Shown here: positions 42,788 through 59,191 of the stretch, piece after piece
Position numbering within the stretch: the stretch's first letter is position 1
How the letters are laid out: the number at the start of each line of letters is the position of its first letter
Source of the DNA: Blepharisma japonicum
Lineage: Eukaryota > Ciliophora > Heterotrichea > Heterotrichida > Blepharismidae
Assembly (NCBI GenBank): GCA_949751835.1
Contig: CATKHK010000005.1
Coordinates: 62,001-126,000, forward strand
DNA: 64,000 nucleotides
Reading direction: 5' to 3'
Made by a program: the position numbers and the translations under genes
Notes under the pieces: generated by a model
Told to the model about the DNA's origin: nothing
The model's database searches: none
What the model saw: the letters and a program-made list of their open reading frames with translations, nothing else

Positions 42788-43705
42788 ATGACAAACAAAA
42801 GCACACTTGACGACTACACTATCTTAGAAAAGATAGGATCCGGTCTCACAGCCAAAGTTAAAGTTGTGAGAGATTCTGAAAGTGGGGAGGTTTATGCTGC
42901 TAAGATTTACAGATCTAAAAGCAGCGAAGCTTCTTCCAGAAATATAATCAGAACTGCAGACAATGAGATCGCAAATTTGCAACAGATTTCTCATCCGAAT
43001 GTAATTAAGCTGATTTGCTCAAATAAATCAGGAGAATATGTTAAGAAAAGTGGAGAAAGGTACTCGTGTGCTTACATTGTGATGGAATTTTGCCCTAATG
43101 GCAATTTCTACGAAACTATAAGAAATATTGGAAGATTTAATGAAAATATTTCAAGATTTTACTTCCATCAATTGATAAATGCAATAGATGCAGCCCACCA
43201 AAGACACATAGTGCACAGAGACTTAAAGCTTGAAAATTTGTTGCTTGATGGCGATTACAATTTAAAAGTGACTGATTTTGGATTCAGTGCTTCAGTTCTT
43301 GACAAAGATGGGTCAAGAATGCTGAGAACTCACTTGGGAACTGAAGGATATATGGCGCCTGAGCTGTACATGAACATCAACTACTATGGAGAATCCGTTG
43401 ATGTGTTTGCTGCTGGCGTTATTTTATTCATTTTCAGGTCTGTAAATCCTCCATTTAGCAGAGCAAACATGAGTGATAGAATATATGAAATTTTAGTAAA
43501 AAATCCAAAGAAATTTTGGGATCTCTACTCCAGGAGCAAGCCTCAAAACTACTATAGTGAGGAATTCAAAAATTTAATAATGGGAATGCTTCATCCAAAC
43601 CCTGAAAGAAGACTCACTATTTACGATATAAAAAATCATCCTTGGTATAATGGTCCGATAGCGTCTTTGGAAGAAGTCCAAAGCATTTTTAGAAGAAATG
43701 CTTAA
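42788..43705 (+). CDS. CAMK/AMPK-like Ser/Thr kinase
   Basis: 305 residues, almost all kinase domain. Glycine loop IGSGLTAKV, VHRDLKLENLLL catalytic loop, VTDFGFSASV, activation loop ending EGYMAPELY, SVDVFAAGVILF. ATP-binding Lys in YAAKIY. The HRDLKLENLLLD motif is typical of CAMK and CDPK-like kinases. No regulatory tail is attached. Its last 40 codons and 3' flank were copied downstream (45499-45739). Confidence 0.9.
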   Translation: MTNKSTLDDYTILEKIGSGLTAKVKVVRDSESGEVYAAKIYRSKSSEASSRNIIRTADNEIANLQQISHPNVIKLICSNKSGEYVKKSGERYSCAYIVMEFCPNGNFYETIRNIGRFNENISRFYFHQLINAIDAAHQRHIVHRDLKLENLLLDGDYNLKVTDFGFSASVLDKDGSRMLRTHLGTEGYMAPELYMNINYYGESVDVFAAGVILFIFRSVNPPFSRANMSDRIYEILVKNPKKFWDLYSRSKPQNYYSEEFKNLIMGMLHPNPERRLTIYDIKNHPWYNGPIASLEEVQSIFRRNA

Positions 43706-43822
43706 ATTAAATAATTGATGTAAAAAAAATTATAATTTCCTTTTTTATATATGTAGATACTCCTGAAATTCATTAATAAATTAAGGAAACTTAGAAAATA
43801 AAAGCAGTTTTATAGATTAAAA

Positions 43823-44851
43823 ATGTCAGGGCATCCACATATACCGAGAGATTCTTCTGATATATTTGAAAATTATTCAACTTATTTTCCTCCTGATTTG
43901 CTTATATATCTGCAAGAATATTTATTACAAATGGAAGATCGAGGTCTTAACCAAGAAGATCTTTCTGATATATTTTTAAGTTATTCGACTTCTCCATCTA
44001 TTGATATACATAGATATCAGCAAGAAAATTTTATACAAATGGAAAATTGAGCTTCTAACCAAGAAGATTTACCTGATTCAACCCATGAGAGCAGCAGAGC
44101 AAGAGCTGTACCAGTTATGAACCCTCCTTTTGCTCATCATCCTTATCGAACCCATCAGCCAGAAAGTATGGAAATTACTGGGGCCGATTCAAATGATAGA
44201 GCACAGCCAGTCCCATGTCTAAACCCAAATTTGAGCCTGAGCAATCCAAGATATGAAGATCCAGTCCTGCCTGAACAAATTGACCGTGCTCAACAAATTC
44301 CTTCATTTCCACCTCACACTGTCAATGCAATACCACATGCATCTCGAATACCAGAGCCACCAAAAAGGAATACCCAAATAACTCAAAATGTTGCAATAAA
44401 CAAAGCCCCTGCCCTTATTCAGCCTACATTTAATACTCCAAAAATGCATGAGGATTTGATCGAAAGTTTGACTTGCTTGATTTGTAAAGATATATTTTTA
44501 GACCCTGTTGTATCGACCTGCTCATGTGCTATTACTATATGCAGAGATTGCTCAGTAAAAAATAAGAGTAAATGCCCCACATGCAGACAAAGGACTAATT
44601 ATCAGCCTAATAGAATAGTCAAAGAACTTGTCGGGAAGATCCCATGCAATTGTGCCTGTGGAATATCATTTAAGCGAGATGATAAAGAAAAACATGAAAA
44701 ACAATGCCCGCAGATTATCAGAAATTGTGGGCTATGCAAGTTTAATGGGAATCGTGGACAATTGCTAGACCATTTATATGAAAAGCATTATTTGAATATT
44801 TTTTACTATTTCGCAGAGCCAGTTCAAGATCAAGTTGTTTCACGGAATTAA
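43823..44851 (+). CDS. RING/TRAF-type zinc-finger protein, copy A
   Basis: 342 residues, one TGA-Trp codon at 44048-44050. N-terminal 36-residue repeat present twice, Pro-rich middle, then a RING finger (CLICKDIFLDP, CSCAITICRDC, CPTC) at about 224-265 and a TRAF-type finger (CNCACGISF, H-x3-C, CGLC, H-x4-H) at about 280-325. The order RING then TRAF finger is that of TRAF/SIAH-like E3 ligases; the first RING pair, second pair and H/C positions all look intact. Near-identical to copy B. May have evolved or been lost in expression; nothing shows it is inactive. Confidence 0.82.
43856..44071 (+). repeat. Two in-frame 36-residue repeats
   Basis: Two 108-base units starting SDIFENYST and SDIFLSYST, each ending NQEDL. 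Copy B has one unit (45773-45880). Confidence 0.85.
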
Positions 44852-44896
44852 TTTAAAATGTCTTAGTTAAAGCATTTTATAAGAATTTCTTAAAAT

Positions 44897-45497
44897 ATGG
44901 CATGCTGCAACTCAAATTGTTCAAACCCTGCAGTAGACTTACAAGCATGCCCGCTCTGTGACACTTATAAATATTGCTCAGAAGACTGTAGAAGGCGAGA
45001 TTGAAATTATTCTCATCAGTTTACTTGTAGCCATAATCAAAGTTATTCTCTTGAAGACTTTAAAGAGGTTAAAGACCCAAGCCTTAAAATCCTGGGAAAA
45101 GGTTCATATGGAGAAGTAAAGCTTGCTACTCATATTAAAACTGGGAATTATTTTGCACTAAAACAAGTAAAAAAAGAAATACTGAAAAGACATTCTTCAT
45201 TATCTGTTTTGTTAAGGAATTTTAAGAGCTAAATTACGGTATATATACTCCAATCTCAAAATTCTTAAGAGAAATCAGTATTCAGAAATCAATAAGGCAT
45301 CCTTATATTATACAGCTTTACCAGCATTTTGAAAGCAATGGTAGTGTTTATATTTTGCTTAAGCATGCTGCACAAGGAAATTTATTTAGATTAATTAGAA
45401 GAAACAGAGAATTATCTGAAGGAAGAGCTTGACATTATTATTCCCAGACCTGCATTGGGCTAAAATATTTGCATGATAAGCAAATAATCCATAGAGA
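44897..45497 (+). pseudogene. Truncated MYND/Aurora-like kinase head (copy A)
   Basis: Begins with the same MACCNSNC start as the intact gene downstream and reads through the MYND finger and the glycine loop. A 53-bp insertion then adds TAA at about 45231. Beyond the insertion it stays homologous, but breaks within the catalytic HRD codon, where the duplicated tail of the CAMK-like kinase is joined out of frame. The HRD motif onward is missing, so it cannot be an active kinase. Confidence 0.9.
45212..45269. mobile_element. IES/MITE-like insertion with TTAAG duplication
   Basis: Compared with copy B, copy A has 53 extra bases here. The insert is bounded by direct TTAAG (45212-45216 and 45265-45269), and the 48-base core has inverted ends GAATTTT/AAAATTC. 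No GT-AG intron reading exists. A TTAA target duplication is typical of piggyBac-type elements, and ciliate IES excision uses domesticated piggyBac transposases. Identity as a retained IES or MITE is inference; no transposase is encoded. Confidence 0.6.
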
Positions 45498-45498
45498 G

Positions 45499-45616
45499 TG
45501 CTTCATCCAAACCCTGAAAGAAGACTCACTATTTATGATATAAAAAATCATCCTTGATATAATAATCGGATAGCATCTTGGAAGGAGTCCAAAGCATTTT
45601 TAGAAGAAATGCTTAA
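45499..45616 (+). pseudogene. Duplicated tail fragment of the CAMK-like kinase
   Basis: Copy of 43587-43705, starting TGCTTCATCC, with small deletions and changes that disrupt the frame. Followed by the copied 3' flank leading into RING copy B. No kinase core is attached. Confidence 0.85.
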
Positions 45617-45739
45617 ATTAAATAATTGATGTAAAAAATATATAATTTGCTTTTTTATATATGTAAATAATAGATATACCTAAAATTCATTAATAAATTA
45701 AGGAAACTTAGAAAATAAAAGCAGTTTTATAGACTAAAA

Positions 45740-46660
45740 ATGTCAGAGCATCCATATATACCGAGAGATTCTTCTGATATATTTGTAAATTATTCTACTT
45801 CTACATCTATTGATTTAAGTAGATTTCAGCAAGAAAATATATCACAAATGGAAGATCGAAGTCTTAACCAAGAAGATTTACCTGATTCAACCCATGAGAG
45901 CAGCAGAGCAAGAGCTGTACCAGTTATGAACCCTCCTTTTGCTCATCATCCTTATCGAACCCATCAGCCAGAAAGTATGGAAATTACTGGGGCCGATTCA
46001 AATGATAGAGCACAGCCAGTCCCATGTCTAAACCCAAATTTGAGCCTGAGCAATCCAAGATATGAAGATCCAGTCCTGCCTGAACAAATTGACCGTGCTC
46101 AACAAATTCCTTCATTTCCACCTCACACTGTCAATGCAATACCACATGCATCTCGGATACCAGAGCCACCAAAAAGGAATACCCAAATAACTCAAAATGT
46201 TGCAATAAACAAAGCCCCTGCCCTTATTCAGCCTACATTTAATACTCCAAAAATGCATGAGGATTTGATAGAAACTTTGACTTGCTTGATTTGTAAAGAT
46301 ATATTTTTAGACCCTGTTGTATCAACCTGCTCATGTGCTATTACTATATGCAGAGATTGCTCAGTGAAAAATAAGAGTAAATGCCCCACATGCAGACAAA
46401 GGACTAATTATCAGCCTAATAGAATAGTCAAAGAACTTGTCGGGAAGATCCCATACAATTGTGCCTGTGGAATATCATTTAAGCGGGATGATAAAGAAAA
46501 ACATGAAAAACAATGCCCACAGATTATCAGATATTGTGGGCTATGCAAGTTTAATGGGAATCGTGGACAATTGCTAGACCATTTATATGAAAAGCATTAT
46601 TTGAATATTTTTTACTATTTCGCAGAGCCAGTTCAAGATCGAGTTGTTTCACGGAATTAA
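45740..46660 (+). CDS. RING/TRAF-type zinc-finger protein, copy B
   Basis: 306 residues, close to identical to the copy A protein but with one N-terminal 36-residue unit. RING at about 188-230, TRAF-type finger at about 245-290. Changes in the fingers are few (for example Cys to Tyr in KIPYNCACG, Asn to Tyr in IRYCGLC); the main zinc ligands remain. Lies 45 bases upstream of the MYND-kinase, so the pair may work together, for instance as an E3 ligase and kinase in one pathway; this is only inferred from proximity. TAA stop. Confidence 0.82.
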   Translation: MSEHPYIPRDSSDIFVNYSTSTSIDLSRFQQENISQMEDRSLNQEDLPDSTHESSRARAVPVMNPPFAHHPYRTHQPESMEITGADSNDRAQPVPCLNPNLSLSNPRYEDPVLPEQIDRAQQIPSFPPHTVNAIPHASRIPEPPKRNTQITQNVAINKAPALIQPTFNTPKMHEDLIETLTCLICKDIFLDPVVSTCSCAITICRDCSVKNKSKCPTCRQRTNYQPNRIVKELVGKIPYNCACGISFKRDDKEKHEKQCPQIIRYCGLCKFNGNRGQLLDHLYEKHYLNIFYYFAEPVQDRVVSRN

Positions 46661-46705
46661 TTTAAAATGTCTTAGATAAAGCTGTTTATAAGAATTTCTT
46701 AAAAT

Positions 46706-48547
<1,842 letters not shown>

Positions 48548-53963: not shown

Positions 53964-56894
53964 TTAAAGATATAATGAAGCAGCAAATACTATCCCTCTT
54001 TGGATCAAACGGATGCCTTCAGCGAATTTTTCAGAAAGCTCGTGACTTTGGATAGATCTTGCGGCGTCGTGTAACTGTCTGAGGAGCTCGTGAAGCCGAC
54101 GAATACATCTAATGATGGTACCTTCATATACGTCTGTAAGCTGGCAAACTTCAGAAAATTTTGCTCCGTGGGCCCAGGAGTAAACTGCTTCCATTAGAGA
54201 TGGTTTGCAGGAATTTATGTAGGATTCTTGGTCAATGTTTAACTTACTTTGCACAAAAACGTCAGCGAATCGGGTAGCGATATCAACTAATAGCTTGTAG
54301 GCGGAAGAAAGTTCGGGGTTTGAAGGCTTTTTGGACTCGGCGGAATTTTCTTCGTGGACAAGGCAGCTGAGAAGTGCGACCATTATATCTATTGGAAGAT
54401 CATTAAAAATACCTCCAAGCATCATTTCTGTTGTCAAGAGCTCGTCACTTGTAGAGATTTCACATGCCACTCTGCCTTTAAGTTCCACGTGGTTTTCACT
54501 GCAAAAGCCAAGCCTTCTTAAAATTCTTCTCATGGCTTTCCAGTCATCTTTTAAGATCATGGTTTTGCTGGCCTTAAGTTGCTTGTTTAGCAATTCTATT
54601 GCTTGGCTAATGCTTTTTTTCTCTTCATATTTCGACTTAATTTCAAGAAAATCAGGCCTTTTGACTACCGGCAATTCTTTTTCCATTTCATCTAGCTCAT
54701 TAATTTTAGATAGTGCAGCAATAAAATCAGGGTCAGCTATTTTAAGATCATTTATAGGATCCAGCAACGGAATATCTCCGTTTAACTGTTTATAAGCTTT
54801 TCTTAAGTCAGCCACAGTCCCTGGCAGAAATTCTTTACTTTTCAAGTCAGGCTTAATATAAAGCCTAAGCTGGCTTACTTTATCAATTGAGTCTAGCTGA
54901 AATCGCATTGAATATGCTTCTCCTTCTTCTGAATTCATATCAAGAAGAGGACGTGGTACATCTCTCATGAGTACATAAATAGCAACATCAATTATAAACT
55001 TTACTTGAACTTCTTCTTCAAGATCTTTTAGCTTCTTTTTATCAACTCTTTTCTTTGTACAACAAGTTATCACTCCCCAGCCCCATTCAATTCCTTTATG
55101 GTCAATTATATATACAATTCTTCCTGGATTCATAAATCTCGCAATAACTTCAGGATTTTGAATATATTTTTTAATTGTTTTTTTAAAGGACTGTTTTGTG
55201 ACTTCTATATGATCATATTCTTCCATTTCATTTTCATGCTCAAAAGTTATTTCATTTAGTTTGTTTTGCAGTTCAATTTTCTTTTTCATGACTTCAGGGC
55301 ATGATCTATCATTTTGGAACTGATGAAAAGATTTTTTTATCATTTGTTCAGGATGCGAATCTTCGATTCGCATTAAATTTAGAAGCATATTGTAGCTTAA
55401 GTGGAACATTGAATTTAAAGGATCACTATGCCCTTTTACCATACCTCTAGCTATTTCTGGCTCCATTTTTTGATCAACCATTAAGATGCATATTCCTTTG
55501 TCATCAATTCCTCTTCTTCCAGCTCTTCCTGACATTTGTATATATTCCCCCCCAGAAATTCATCTGAAGCTTTCTCCATCAAATTTCCTGACATTAGTAA
55601 AAACAACAGTTCTTGCAGGCATATTTAACCCCATGCTAAAAGTTTCTGTGCTAAATAAACATTTGACAAAGCCTTCTTGGAAGAGAATTTCTGTGACTTC
55701 TTTTATAATAGGCAATAATCCTCCATGATGGATTCCTACCCCTTTTTTTAATAGTGGGAGAACATTTTGGATCATAGGTAGACTTTTGTCTTCTTCTGCC
55801 AATGTGTCAATGGCGTTTACAAAAATCTGTTCTATTGCAGCTTTTTCTTCATCTGATGTAAAGTCGTGCTTATTTAAAGAAATTGCATAAGCTTCGCATT
55901 CTCTTTTGCTGAAGCTAAACACAATGGCGGGCTTCATATCTTTTTCCATAATCAGCTGGACAATTTTGGTGACTTCTGAGTTATTTCCTGGGCCAACTTT
56001 TCTGTTTTGCTTTCCATCTTGGGCATCATTTAAGCATGAAATGGCTTTTTTGAAGCTTTTTTCTTTGAATTTTCCAAACTCATCAACTACTAAATAAAGC
56101 CCTTCACCGCCTGAAGGGAATATATAATGTTGCAAAGGTGTAGGACGATATTCAGTATACACCACATGGCAAGGCTGTTTTTTTAGCTTGCACACCCATT
56201 CAGCAAATTCTAATGCATTAGGAATGGTCGCAGACAAAAATATCAATTTTATAGCTTCAGGCAATAAAATAATGGTTTCTTCCCATACGACTCCTCTTTC
56301 TTTGTCTCTCATATAATGAATTTCATCAAAAATGACCCATTTCATTTCACGTACAACTTCACTGCCTTTGTATAGCATTGATCGGAGAATTTCTGTGGTC
56401 ATTACTAAACAGCTGGCACTTTCATTGATGGTGACATCACCTGTCATTAGTCCGACATCTTTGAATTCGTCGTGGAATTCTCGATATTTCTGGTTACTTA
56501 AAGCTTTTATTGGGGATGTATATATAACTCTTTGGTTGTTTTTTAATGCTGATGCAATCGCATACTCAGCTACAGCTGTTTTGCCAGCTGAAGTGTGAGC
56601 GGCTACGAGGACACTTTCGTTATTTTCGATACATTTTATGGCACATTTTTGGAAAGGGTCTAGCTCGAATTTATAAGTTTTTGCTGGTTCTGATTGGCTT
56701 GTTTCGATCTCTATGTAATCAATTGGATATGCGCATTCATGTGTGCAGCCATCAATATCTTCAGTTTTCACATAATATTCTTCTTTGAATTCCTCTACCT
56801 CTTCTTCTTCTCTCATCCTCTTTTTTGGCAGCTGAACTTTTGATTTTGCCCCTTCTTGAAAGACATCAAATAAACCTGTTCCGAAGTCTTCCAT
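53964..56894 (-). CDS. MTR4: MTR4/SKI2-family exosome RNA helicase
   Basis: 976 residues. Q-motif-like LDPFQKCAI, Walker [19 protein letters not shown] (DEIH box), SAT as [16 protein letters not shown] motif VI (after a TGA-Trp codon at 55557-55559), then the MTR4 arch/stalk and helical bundle (ending [20 protein letters not shown]). Family role: unwinds RNA for the nuclear exosome in TRAMP-like complexes. A complete MTR4/SKI2-family protein; the MTR4 assignment rests on length and N-terminus lacking SKI2-type extension. TAA stop. Confidence 0.93.
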
Positions 56895-56924
56895 TTATCT
56901 AAGTCAAATATGTGATAATTATAA
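56895..56924. promoter_or_regulatory. 30-bp divergent spacer of MTR4 and RPB5
   Basis: Only 30 bases separate the two start codons. Together with the starts they form a 9-base inverted repeat, TCCATTTAT and ATAAATGGA. No TATA or other known box was recognised; transcription starts must overlap or lie inside the genes. Confidence 0.55.
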
Positions 56925-57539
56925 ATGGAAGCAGAAGAAGCCAATAAGCTTTACAGGATTTGGAGGACCCTCATGCAAATGCTCCAAGACAGAGAATACC
57001 AAGTGCCTGACGACCAAGCAAACTATACTCTTAATGGCTTCAAAAATAAATACTGTGAATCCAAAACAAGGGAAGCCTTAAATTTCCAGTTCTCAAAAGT
57101 AGACGAAAATAGCAAAAAGATCTTTGTTTGTTTCCCTGACGACCAAAGAATTGCAGTCCCCATCATTGCATCAGTTGCTCAAAGAATGCACAAAGAAGGG
57201 ATCGAACGAGCAATAATTATTGGGAAAGGGATCATTACCCCGTCTGCTAAAACCGCCATTGTGGAGCTACAAAATCATTTTATAATAGAATACTTTGAAG
57301 AAAAAGAGCTCTTGGTCAATATCACTGAGCATGAGCTTGTACCAAAGCACATTGTGATGACTGGTGATGAGAAAGGAGCTTTACTGAAAAGATATAGAGT
57401 CAAGGAAAGCCTGTATCCAAAAATCCAAACTACTGATCCTGTGGCAAGATATTTAGGCCTGCAGAGAGGACAAGTTGTGAAAATTATAAGGAATAGCGAA
57501 ACAGCTGGAAAATATATTACCTACCGCTTAGCAGTTTAA
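56925..57539 (+). CDS. RPB5: RNA polymerase subunit RPB5 (RPABC1), copy A
   Basis: 204 residues, full length. N-terminal jaw domain and the C-terminal assembly domain shared by archaeal RpoH: ITEHELVPKHIVMTGDEK, followed by RYRVKESLYPKIQTTDPVARYLGLQRGQVVKIIR. The subunit is common to RNA polymerases I, II and III. Its copy B is nucleotide-identical across the coding region. TAA stop. Confidence 0.97.
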   Translation: MEAEEANKLYRIWRTLMQMLQDREYQVPDDQANYTLNGFKNKYCESKTREALNFQFSKVDENSKKIFVCFPDDQRIAVPIIASVAQRMHKEGIERAIIIGKGIITPSAKTAIVELQNHFIIEYFEEKELLVNITEHELVPKHIVMTGDEKGALLKRYRVKESLYPKIQTTDPVARYLGLQRGQVVKIIRNSETAGKYITYRLAV

Positions 57540-57652
57540 ATAACCTTTAATTTGATTTGAAAATATGAGGAGGAGTGTTGAATTTAGGTGGATAATAATA
57601 TATTAAATGCTAAAAATAAGCTGTAAATCTAGATTTTTTAGAGCTGTAAAAT

Positions 57653-57892
57653 ATGGGATGCAAATGCTCTAATACAGTTGTAAAAGGTACAGTTCAGCTT
57701 AAAGATCTTAAATCAACAGCAGTTGATATAAAAAGCAATAACGGCTCGATTGTGAGTAAGAAAGAAACTACAGATATAAAAGAAGAAACAAATGTGATGG
57801 TTTCTGTTCTAAATGAGTTTTTGGATGATATATACTCTAGAGCTCTCAAAAATGTTGCGATAAAAACGAAATTGAAAGAACAAAGGATATAG
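57653..57892 (+). CDS. Small MGC-type protein, copy A
   Basis: 79 residues starting MGCKCS, a likely N-myristoylation plus palmitoylation signal (inferred), followed by a polar region and a C-terminal amphipathic helix (about 50-78, VLNEFLDDIYSRAL). No family recognised. The layout could be a membrane-tethered adaptor. Differs from copy B at residues 66 (Lys) and 70 (Ile). TAG stop. Confidence 0.65.
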   Translation: MGCKCSNTVVKGTVQLKDLKSTAVDIKSNNGSIVSKKETTDIKEETNVMVSVLNEFLDDIYSRALKNVAIKTKLKEQRI

Positions 57893-57930
57893 CTTTACCT
57901 TAGGACATAATATTCTTCTTTGAATTCCTC

Positions 57931-58029
57931 CTACTCTTCTTCTTCTCTCATCCTCTTTTTTGGCAGCTGAACTTTTGATTTTGCCCCTTCTTGAAAGACA
58001 TCAAATAAACCTGTTCCGAAGTCTTCCAT
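57931..58029 (-). pseudogene. MTR4 N-terminal fragment with stop
   Basis: Copied first 32 codons of MTR4. Compared with the original, GAG-GTA-GAG became GAG-TAG-GAG, giving a stop; the fragment has no further helicase sequence. It is a by-product of the duplication. Confidence 0.9.
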
Positions 58030-58059
58030 TTATCTAAGTCAAATATGTGATAATTATAA

Positions 58060-58674
58060 ATGGAAGCAGAAGAAGCCAATAAGCTTTACAGGATTTGGAG
58101 GACCCTCATGCAAATGCTCCAAGACAGAGAATACCAAGTGCCTGACGACCAAGCAAACTATACTCTTAATGGCTTCAAAAATAAATACTGTGAATCCAAA
58201 ACAAGGGAAGCCTTAAATTTCCAGTTCTCAAAAGTAGACGAAAATAGCAAAAAGATCTTTGTTTGTTTCCCTGACGACCAAAGAATTGCAGTCCCCATCA
58301 TTGCATCAGTTGCTCAAAGAATGCACAAAGAAGGGATCGAACGAGCAATAATTATTGGGAAAGGGATCATTACCCCGTCTGCTAAAACCGCCATTGTGGA
58401 GCTACAAAATCATTTTATAATAGAATACTTTGAAGAAAAAGAGCTCTTGGTCAATATCACTGAGCATGAGCTTGTACCAAAGCACATTGTGATGACTGGT
58501 GATGAGAAAGGAGCTTTACTGAAAAGATATAGAGTCAAGGAAAGCCTGTATCCAAAAATCCAAACTACTGATCCTGTGGCAAGATATTTAGGCCTGCAGA
58601 GAGGACAAGTTGTGAAAATTATAAGGAATAGCGAAACAGCTGGAAAATATATTACCTACCGCTTAGCAGTTTAA
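58060..58674 (+). CDS. RPB5: RNA polymerase subunit RPB5 (RPABC1), copy B
   Basis: Second, nucleotide-identical coding region for the same 204-residue protein, with at least 130 bases of copied upstream sequence, so it may be expressed. Two identical copies of a core polymerase subunit would alter dosage if both are transcribed. Recent duplication or gene conversion would explain the identity. Confidence 0.96.
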   Translation: MEAEEANKLYRIWRTLMQMLQDREYQVPDDQANYTLNGFKNKYCESKTREALNFQFSKVDENSKKIFVCFPDDQRIAVPIIASVAQRMHKEGIERAIIIGKGIITPSAKTAIVELQNHFIIEYFEEKELLVNITEHELVPKHIVMTGDEKGALLKRYRVKESLYPKIQTTDPVARYLGLQRGQVVKIIRNSETAGKYITYRLAV

Positions 58675-58787
58675 ATAACCTTTAATTTGATTTGAAAATA
58701 TGAGGAGGAGTGTTGAATTTAGGTGGATAATAATATATTAAATGCTAAAAATAAGCTGTAAATCTAGATTTTTTAGAGCTGTAAAAT

Positions 58788-59027
58788 ATGGGATGCAAAT
58801 GCTCTAATACAGTTGTAAAAGGTACAGTTCAGCTTAAAGATCTTAAATCAACAGCAGTTGATATAAAAAGCAATAACGGCTCGATTGTGAGTAAGAAAGA
58901 AACTACAGATATAAAAGAAGAAACAAATGTGATGGTTTCTGTTCTAAATGAGTTTTTGGATGATATATACTCTAGAGCTCTCGAAAATGTTGCGAAAAAA
59001 ACGAAATTGAAAGAGCAAAGGATATAG
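58788..59027 (+). CDS. Small MGC-type protein, copy B
   Basis: 79 residues, same MGCKCS start; Lys66 to Glu and Ile70 to Lys relative to copy A. Both changes sit in the C-terminal amphipathic helix, replacing a hydrophobic position with Lys, so its helix may pack differently. TAG stop. Confidence 0.65.
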   Translation: MGCKCSNTVVKGTVQLKDLKSTAVDIKSNNGSIVSKKETTDIKEETNVMVSVLNEFLDDIYSRALENVAKKTKLKEQRI

Positions 59028-59191
59028 CTTTACTTTAGGAGTTTTTAATGCATTATAAGTCTATTTTATATTTAAATTGATGTGAGCTTACAAGTGGAAT
59101 ATCTAATTTTTTTTGGAAATGATACAAGGCATTAAATAATTTTGCTAAAATTATATAATTATAGGATTATATAAAATTATGTTAGTTTTCA

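Follow-up and report, generated by a model that had tools for sequence, protein, structure and literature searches.

The window analysed here, a stretch of 64,000 nucleotides corresponding to bases 62001-126000 of the 832-kb contig C5 in a Blepharisma japonicum assembly of 45,185,585 bases and 224 contigs, contains a tandem duplication with a first unit at 43584..45497 and a second at 45496..47253, both on the forward strand. Each unit includes a zinc-finger gene, preceded by the tail of an upstream kinase and followed by the head of a MYND-finger kinase, the last being designated copy A in the first unit and copy B in the second. One 108-bp in-frame repeat unit close to the N-terminus distinguishes the zinc-finger genes (43823-44851 and 45740-46660). 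Its junction carries a 13-bp repeat, and both gene copies are open; the match of Pfam Sina_ZnF to the first of them fell below the Pfam cut-off. The duplicated kinase tail at 45496-45877 has 88.5% identity to its source, compared with about 97% in the zinc-finger/MYND-kinase part, which suggests that constraint on this fragment was lost. Another tandem duplication in the window (56770-57905 and 57905-59040, about 1.14 kb) has copies that are 99.4-99.5% identical.

The sole complete MYND kinase of the two units is that of the second, copy B (46706..48547, forward strand), an open gene without the insert described below, encoding a 613-aa MYND-finger protein kinase with TGA read as Trp (three in-frame TGA codons in 613 residues). 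Both zf-MYND and Pkinase scored above the Pfam cut-offs, with the MYND finger at the N-terminus and a protein kinase domain that, from its motifs, we take to be Aurora-like. Identity to its five closest other kinase matches in the genome is 61-89%, and TGA occurs in many of the 145 kinase matches listed. The copy A reading frame (44897..45232, forward strand) encodes the MYND finger and the start of the kinase domain, reaches LLRNFKS and then stops at a TAA (45230-45232) inside the insert, confirming the proposal of an initial annotation of this DNA that the insert breaks the frame. Kinase-derived DNA extends to about 45497, where the duplication junction cuts the gene, and the pseudogene envisaged in that annotation is indeed a truncated gene copy. 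When the C22 paralog is taken as outgroup for the aligned kinase head, 8 changes are private to copy A and 1 to copy B (two-sided binomial p 0.04), as would be expected if copy A decays.

The far end of contig C5 consists of tandem TGTTAGGG, the complement of a permuted form of CCCTAACA, and both CCCTAACA telomeres and UGA=Trp have been reported for Blepharisma (PMC9942806). No telomere-type repeat was found at the starts of the nine contigs checked, C5 among them. The same source describes the published B. stoltei assembly as 41 Mb with 64 telomere-to-telomere sequences (PMC9942806), from which the present assembly departs in both size and number of contigs. We infer that the present assembly is macronuclear, that is, somatic-type.

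Alignment of the two kinase heads revealed that copy A, at 45212..45269, consists of TTAAG, 48 bp and a second TTAAG (...TTTTG TTAAG GAATTTTAAGAGCTAAATTACGGTATATATACTCCAATCTCAAAATTC TTAAG AGAAATC...), whereas copy B reads ...TTTTG TTAAG AGAAATC... at the same site. The direct repeat (45212..45216 on the left and 45265..45269 on the right, both forward strand) is exactly 5 bp long and contains TTAA; the body (45217..45264, forward strand) has a G+C content of 27%, and together with one TTAAG it amounts to a net insertion of 53 bp relative to copy B. Kinase paralog alignment showed that the insert is absent from 6/6 comparators (copy B and paralogs on contigs C22, C55, C2, C31 and C11), the kinase matches of which contain no stop except TGA, and that the empty site in copy B and C22 already has TTAAG. 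Since copy B and five more distant paralogs lack it, the 53-bp insertion is, on these alignments, derived and private to copy A, in somatic-type sequence. The clean 53-bp insertion at a TTAA-type site, flanked by TTAAG on both sides, that had been described from the letters alone is thus upheld, and the counter-possibility raised with it, a deletion in copy B, is rejected by the five further insert-less paralogs. An intron was likewise ruled out, the insert being 53 bp long compared with 15-16 bp for Blepharisma introns (PMC9942806) and copy B being open across the site.

The ends of the insert are inverted with respect to each other. Comparison of the left end, GAATTTTAAGA (45217..45227, forward strand), with the reverse-complemented right end, GAATTTTGAGA (45254..45264, reverse strand), gave seven exact matches at the outset and 10/11 over the whole (GAATTTTRAGA), bearing out the GAATTTT/AAAATTC ends noted earlier; taking TTAA rather than TTAAG as the duplicated target would put the inverted repeats one base out of register. 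As a null model, 53-bp pieces were drawn at random from window DNA and inserted in silico 300,000 times. Of these insertions, 1016/300,000 gave a direct repeat of at least 5 bp containing TA and 4/300,000 an inverted repeat of at least 10/11, and none (0/300,000) combined a TA direct repeat of at least 4 bp with an inverted repeat of at least 9/11. As single-stranded DNA, the insert folded no better than shuffled sequences (z -0.75; 43/200 shuffles at least as good), and a hairpin reading was rejected on that basis.

We also scanned 238,135 bp blindly, without paralogs, for direct repeats of at least 4 bp with inverted ends of at least 10/11 at spacings of 30-200 bp, a design with little power. 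The real orientation yielded 6 at 10/11 (two control orientations: 5 and 3) and 50 at 9/11 (controls: 55 and 44), showing no clear excess of TA repeats with inverted ends above the orientation controls. Markov simulation over 40-130 bp gave a mean of 0.9 across 12 runs, compared with 5 rows (4 places) observed; in view of the orientation controls, a length cluster at 53-66 in this comparison was set aside. Because the blind scan is weak, the case depends on boundaries fixed by paralogs. In a survey of 47 paralog alignments comprising 33,418 columns from 288,135 bp, with alignments of fewer than 200 columns or less than 70% identity dropped, the only insertions of at least 40 bp were the copy A insert (seen against both copy B and C22) and one 108-bp coding tandem-repeat unit, that of the zinc-finger gene. 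Insertions such as that of copy A are rare.

As a whole, the insert has no second occurrence in the 45.19-Mb assembly: both the pattern joining its two ends and its inner 30-mer (3 mismatches) match at this locus alone, no second copy having both ends was found, and the left-end 21-mer has one other match in the assembly, with 2 mismatches, versus 2 in the control. The right-end 21-mer including TTAA (45248..45268, reverse strand) has ten matches in the assembly counting the insert itself, three of them exact, versus 0 in the control. The nine other matches, at up to 2 mismatches, comprise two exact ones, four with one mismatch and three with two; the number of exact matches expected by chance is 0.0004-0.0006. 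The search for related elements suggested by the initial annotation, as carried out in this macronuclear-type assembly, was therefore positive for the right end (nine other matches, control 0) and negative for the whole insert and the left end.

Seven of these nine places (on contigs C97, C98, C1, C53, C102, C191 and C38) carry a longer common repeat, TTAAGAATTTTGAGATTGGAGAATGATGGAATCAAAAACTTTCCAA; of the remaining two, that on C18 is without the longer repeat and that on C49 is doubtful. A 28-mer of this dispersed repeat occurs exactly six times, at unrelated places (control 0). Counted from the first T of TTAA, similarity in the 21 pairs formed by the seven places starts at -7 to +1 and runs to 41-84 bp, and no flank beyond that is common to them. 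The dispersed 41-84-bp repeat thus begins at TTAA and has a near-invariant core. The insert matches it in its last 21 bp only and then diverges. Around the nine other right-end places, no inverted copy of the repeat was detected at distances up to about 460 bp (best inverted scores 15-23), a search in which a diverged opposite end would be missed. An RNA gene at the repeat places was rejected: among ten 941-bp loci searched with E up to 0.1, the sole match was to a miRNA and scored 26.6 bits, the gathering score being 70. A single conserved coding family was also rejected, the C191 peptide matching C34 in its upstream part only and C38 and C1 in the repeat part only. The repeat may be a transposon end, a retroelement tail or a functional motif.

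The split matches of the C191 peptide, to C34 on one side and to C38 and C1 on the other, mark C191 as a junction. There, a gene fragment related to two tandem genes on C34, presumably encoding an Arf-like GTPase, reaches GAGCTTAA, after which the dispersed repeat takes over; at the junction position one of the C34 genes (C34b) has TTAA and the other (C34a) TTAG. The junction has no sharp edge: past it, the C34 genes run on with bases similar to the repeat's first five (GAATA or AAATA), as seen when the C34 paralogs, TTAGGAATA and TTAAAAATA, are set against TTAAGAATA. Judged from these bases, the junction may represent either an insertion at TTAA or a microhomology join through 8/9 common bases. 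On the far side of the repeat, C177-related sequence starts 70-77 bp away from the TTAA, with no return of the C34-type gene. C191 thus supports TTAA targeting less strongly than the window locus, at which both flanks resume.

Taken together, the insert is a derived feature of copy A alone, with duplicated TTAAG on its flanks and inverted ends, and its right 21 bp equal the TTAA-side end of a repeat found at seven other places. The best reading of these features is a MITE- or IES-like miniature element that is still in the somatic genome, and we lean towards the view that a very small inverted-repeat element integrating at TTAA (or at the inner TA) entered the head of the truncated MYND-kinase duplicate. 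Integration would have been into germline DNA and transposase-mediated, with a staggered cut followed by duplication of the target (TTAAG), and would have occurred after the tandem duplication, into a copy that was already truncated. The insert may be a deletion derivative of a longer element, because its right end is common to the dispersed repeat but its interior is different. Macronuclear development would leave it unexcised, whether it is too short, has ends that are poor for the excisase or was never an IES, and it could persist since the truncated copy is presumably under little constraint.

Alternatively, the insert may be a retained IES, a normally excised germline sequence as old as the duplication or older whose excision failed in copy A through shortness or loss of an end; we regard this as possible but rather unlikely. 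It would account for the TA-containing direct repeat, a feature of roughly three quarters of the IESs of B. stoltei, and for the inverted ends, which are said to be common among them (PMC9942856), and the length of 53 bp falls about one helical turn under the first published length peak of Blepharisma IESs, at 65 bp (PMC9942856). There is also a precedent in Paramecium, in which six IES-to-exon recruitments were reported among 64 groups examined (PMC3464196). However, the lack of the insert from the somatic DNA of the paralogs says nothing of their germline IESs, and Blepharisma IES ends are described as heterogeneous, leaving no consensus end with which to compare (PMC9942856). An extension that we consider improbable is escape by shortening, in which an IES-type element shrank by decay to 53 bp, less than the shortest length that the Blepharisma excisase handles well, and became permanently somatic, with the seven TTAA-ended 41-84-bp repeats being somatic relics of the same germline family. 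IES excision has been called a continuum, and DNA without suitable target sites has been conjectured to escape it (PMC9942856); in Paramecium, old IESs shorten (PMC3464196). The accessible literature on Blepharisma yielded no report of this insert or of somatically retained short TTAA-bounded elements.

The sharpness of the dispersed repeat on one side and its variability on the other (41-84 bp) would also suit a retroposed, 5'-truncated non-LTR element, with the TTAA side as the 3' end, the seven places as variably 5'-truncated copies and the insert as a very small copy, either truncated or template-switched, flanked by a short target duplication; non-LTR retrotransposons have been reported in the Blepharisma somatic genome (PMC9942856). 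This is quite unlikely, the insert having just the last 21 bp of the repeat before it differs and the inverted match between its two ends being left unexplained. Still more doubtful is a repair event in which captured DNA, 21 bp of the dispersed repeat among it, served to fill in and seal a staggered break at TTAAG, perhaps via TTAAG microhomology. The composite nature of the insert, 21 bp being repeat-derived and the remainder unique, and the 8/9 common bases at the C191 junction of the same repeat speak for such filling, but two coincidences would be needed, namely a captured repeat end falling on the border TTAA and 10/11 inverted ends. Finally, that copy B and the other paralogs lost the sequence, or that the insert is an assembly error, is very improbable, no supporting point having been found, all six comparators lacking the insert with kinase matches that are stop-free except for TGA, and the inverted ends and repeat match not being expected from misassembly.

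The implications of the insert depend on its germline status. If the insert is a germline IES, copies A and B would constitute a natural paired test of the excisability of a short element, in one genome and 1.8 kb apart. If it was never an IES, small TTAA-targeting elements would be able to colonise somatic-destined ciliate DNA when landing in dispensable sequence.

MITEs of the piggyBac type have a TTAA target duplication, and piggyBac terminal repeats begin CCY. The insert has TTAA within its TTAAG, already present at the empty site, but its ends are GGAATTTT/GAATTTT and not CCY, and the piggyBac relationship proposed earlier is not supported, the TTAA target alone being in agreement with it. 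Twelve matches to piggyBac-type transposases at 7 places in the assembly are not linked to the insert, and no transposon copy related to the insert was found in the assembly. As in MITEs generally, there is a target-site duplication with terminal inverted repeats in a short, noncoding sequence; the several copies with both ends typical of MITEs are replaced by a right end that alone recurs in the assembly. The BogoMITE or 'MITIES' elements of Blepharisma share with the insert a small size, a non-coding nature, inverted ends and target duplication of the TAA/TTA type; unlike it, they are about 389 bp long, have C-rich ends and occur in the germline assembly in some 8,000 copies (PMC9942856). 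Their C-rich terminal repeat of about 30 bp differs from the GAATTTTRAGA ends found here, and an 18-mer of the BogoMITE end is absent from our assembly at up to 1 mismatch, leading us to reject this identity; its absence fits a somatic assembly or another species.

With the exon-recruited IESs of Paramecium (Arnaiz et al. 2012, PMC3464196), the retained-IES reading shares its outcome, a germline element becoming somatic sequence as recognized by paralog comparison, although that study drew on germline sequence and the copy A insert is known from a somatic-type assembly alone. From the IESs of B. stoltei (Seah et al. 2023, PMC9942856), the insert differs in being present in a somatic-type assembly and in its length of 53 bp, below both the 65-bp peak and the short class of about 65-115 bp; it would pass the filter of that study, which dropped predictions under 50 bp. 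With the same IESs it has in common the TA-containing terminal direct repeat (here TTAAG), inverted ends of a heterogeneous kind, shortness, AT-richness and the intragenic location that is frequent among them (PMC9942856).
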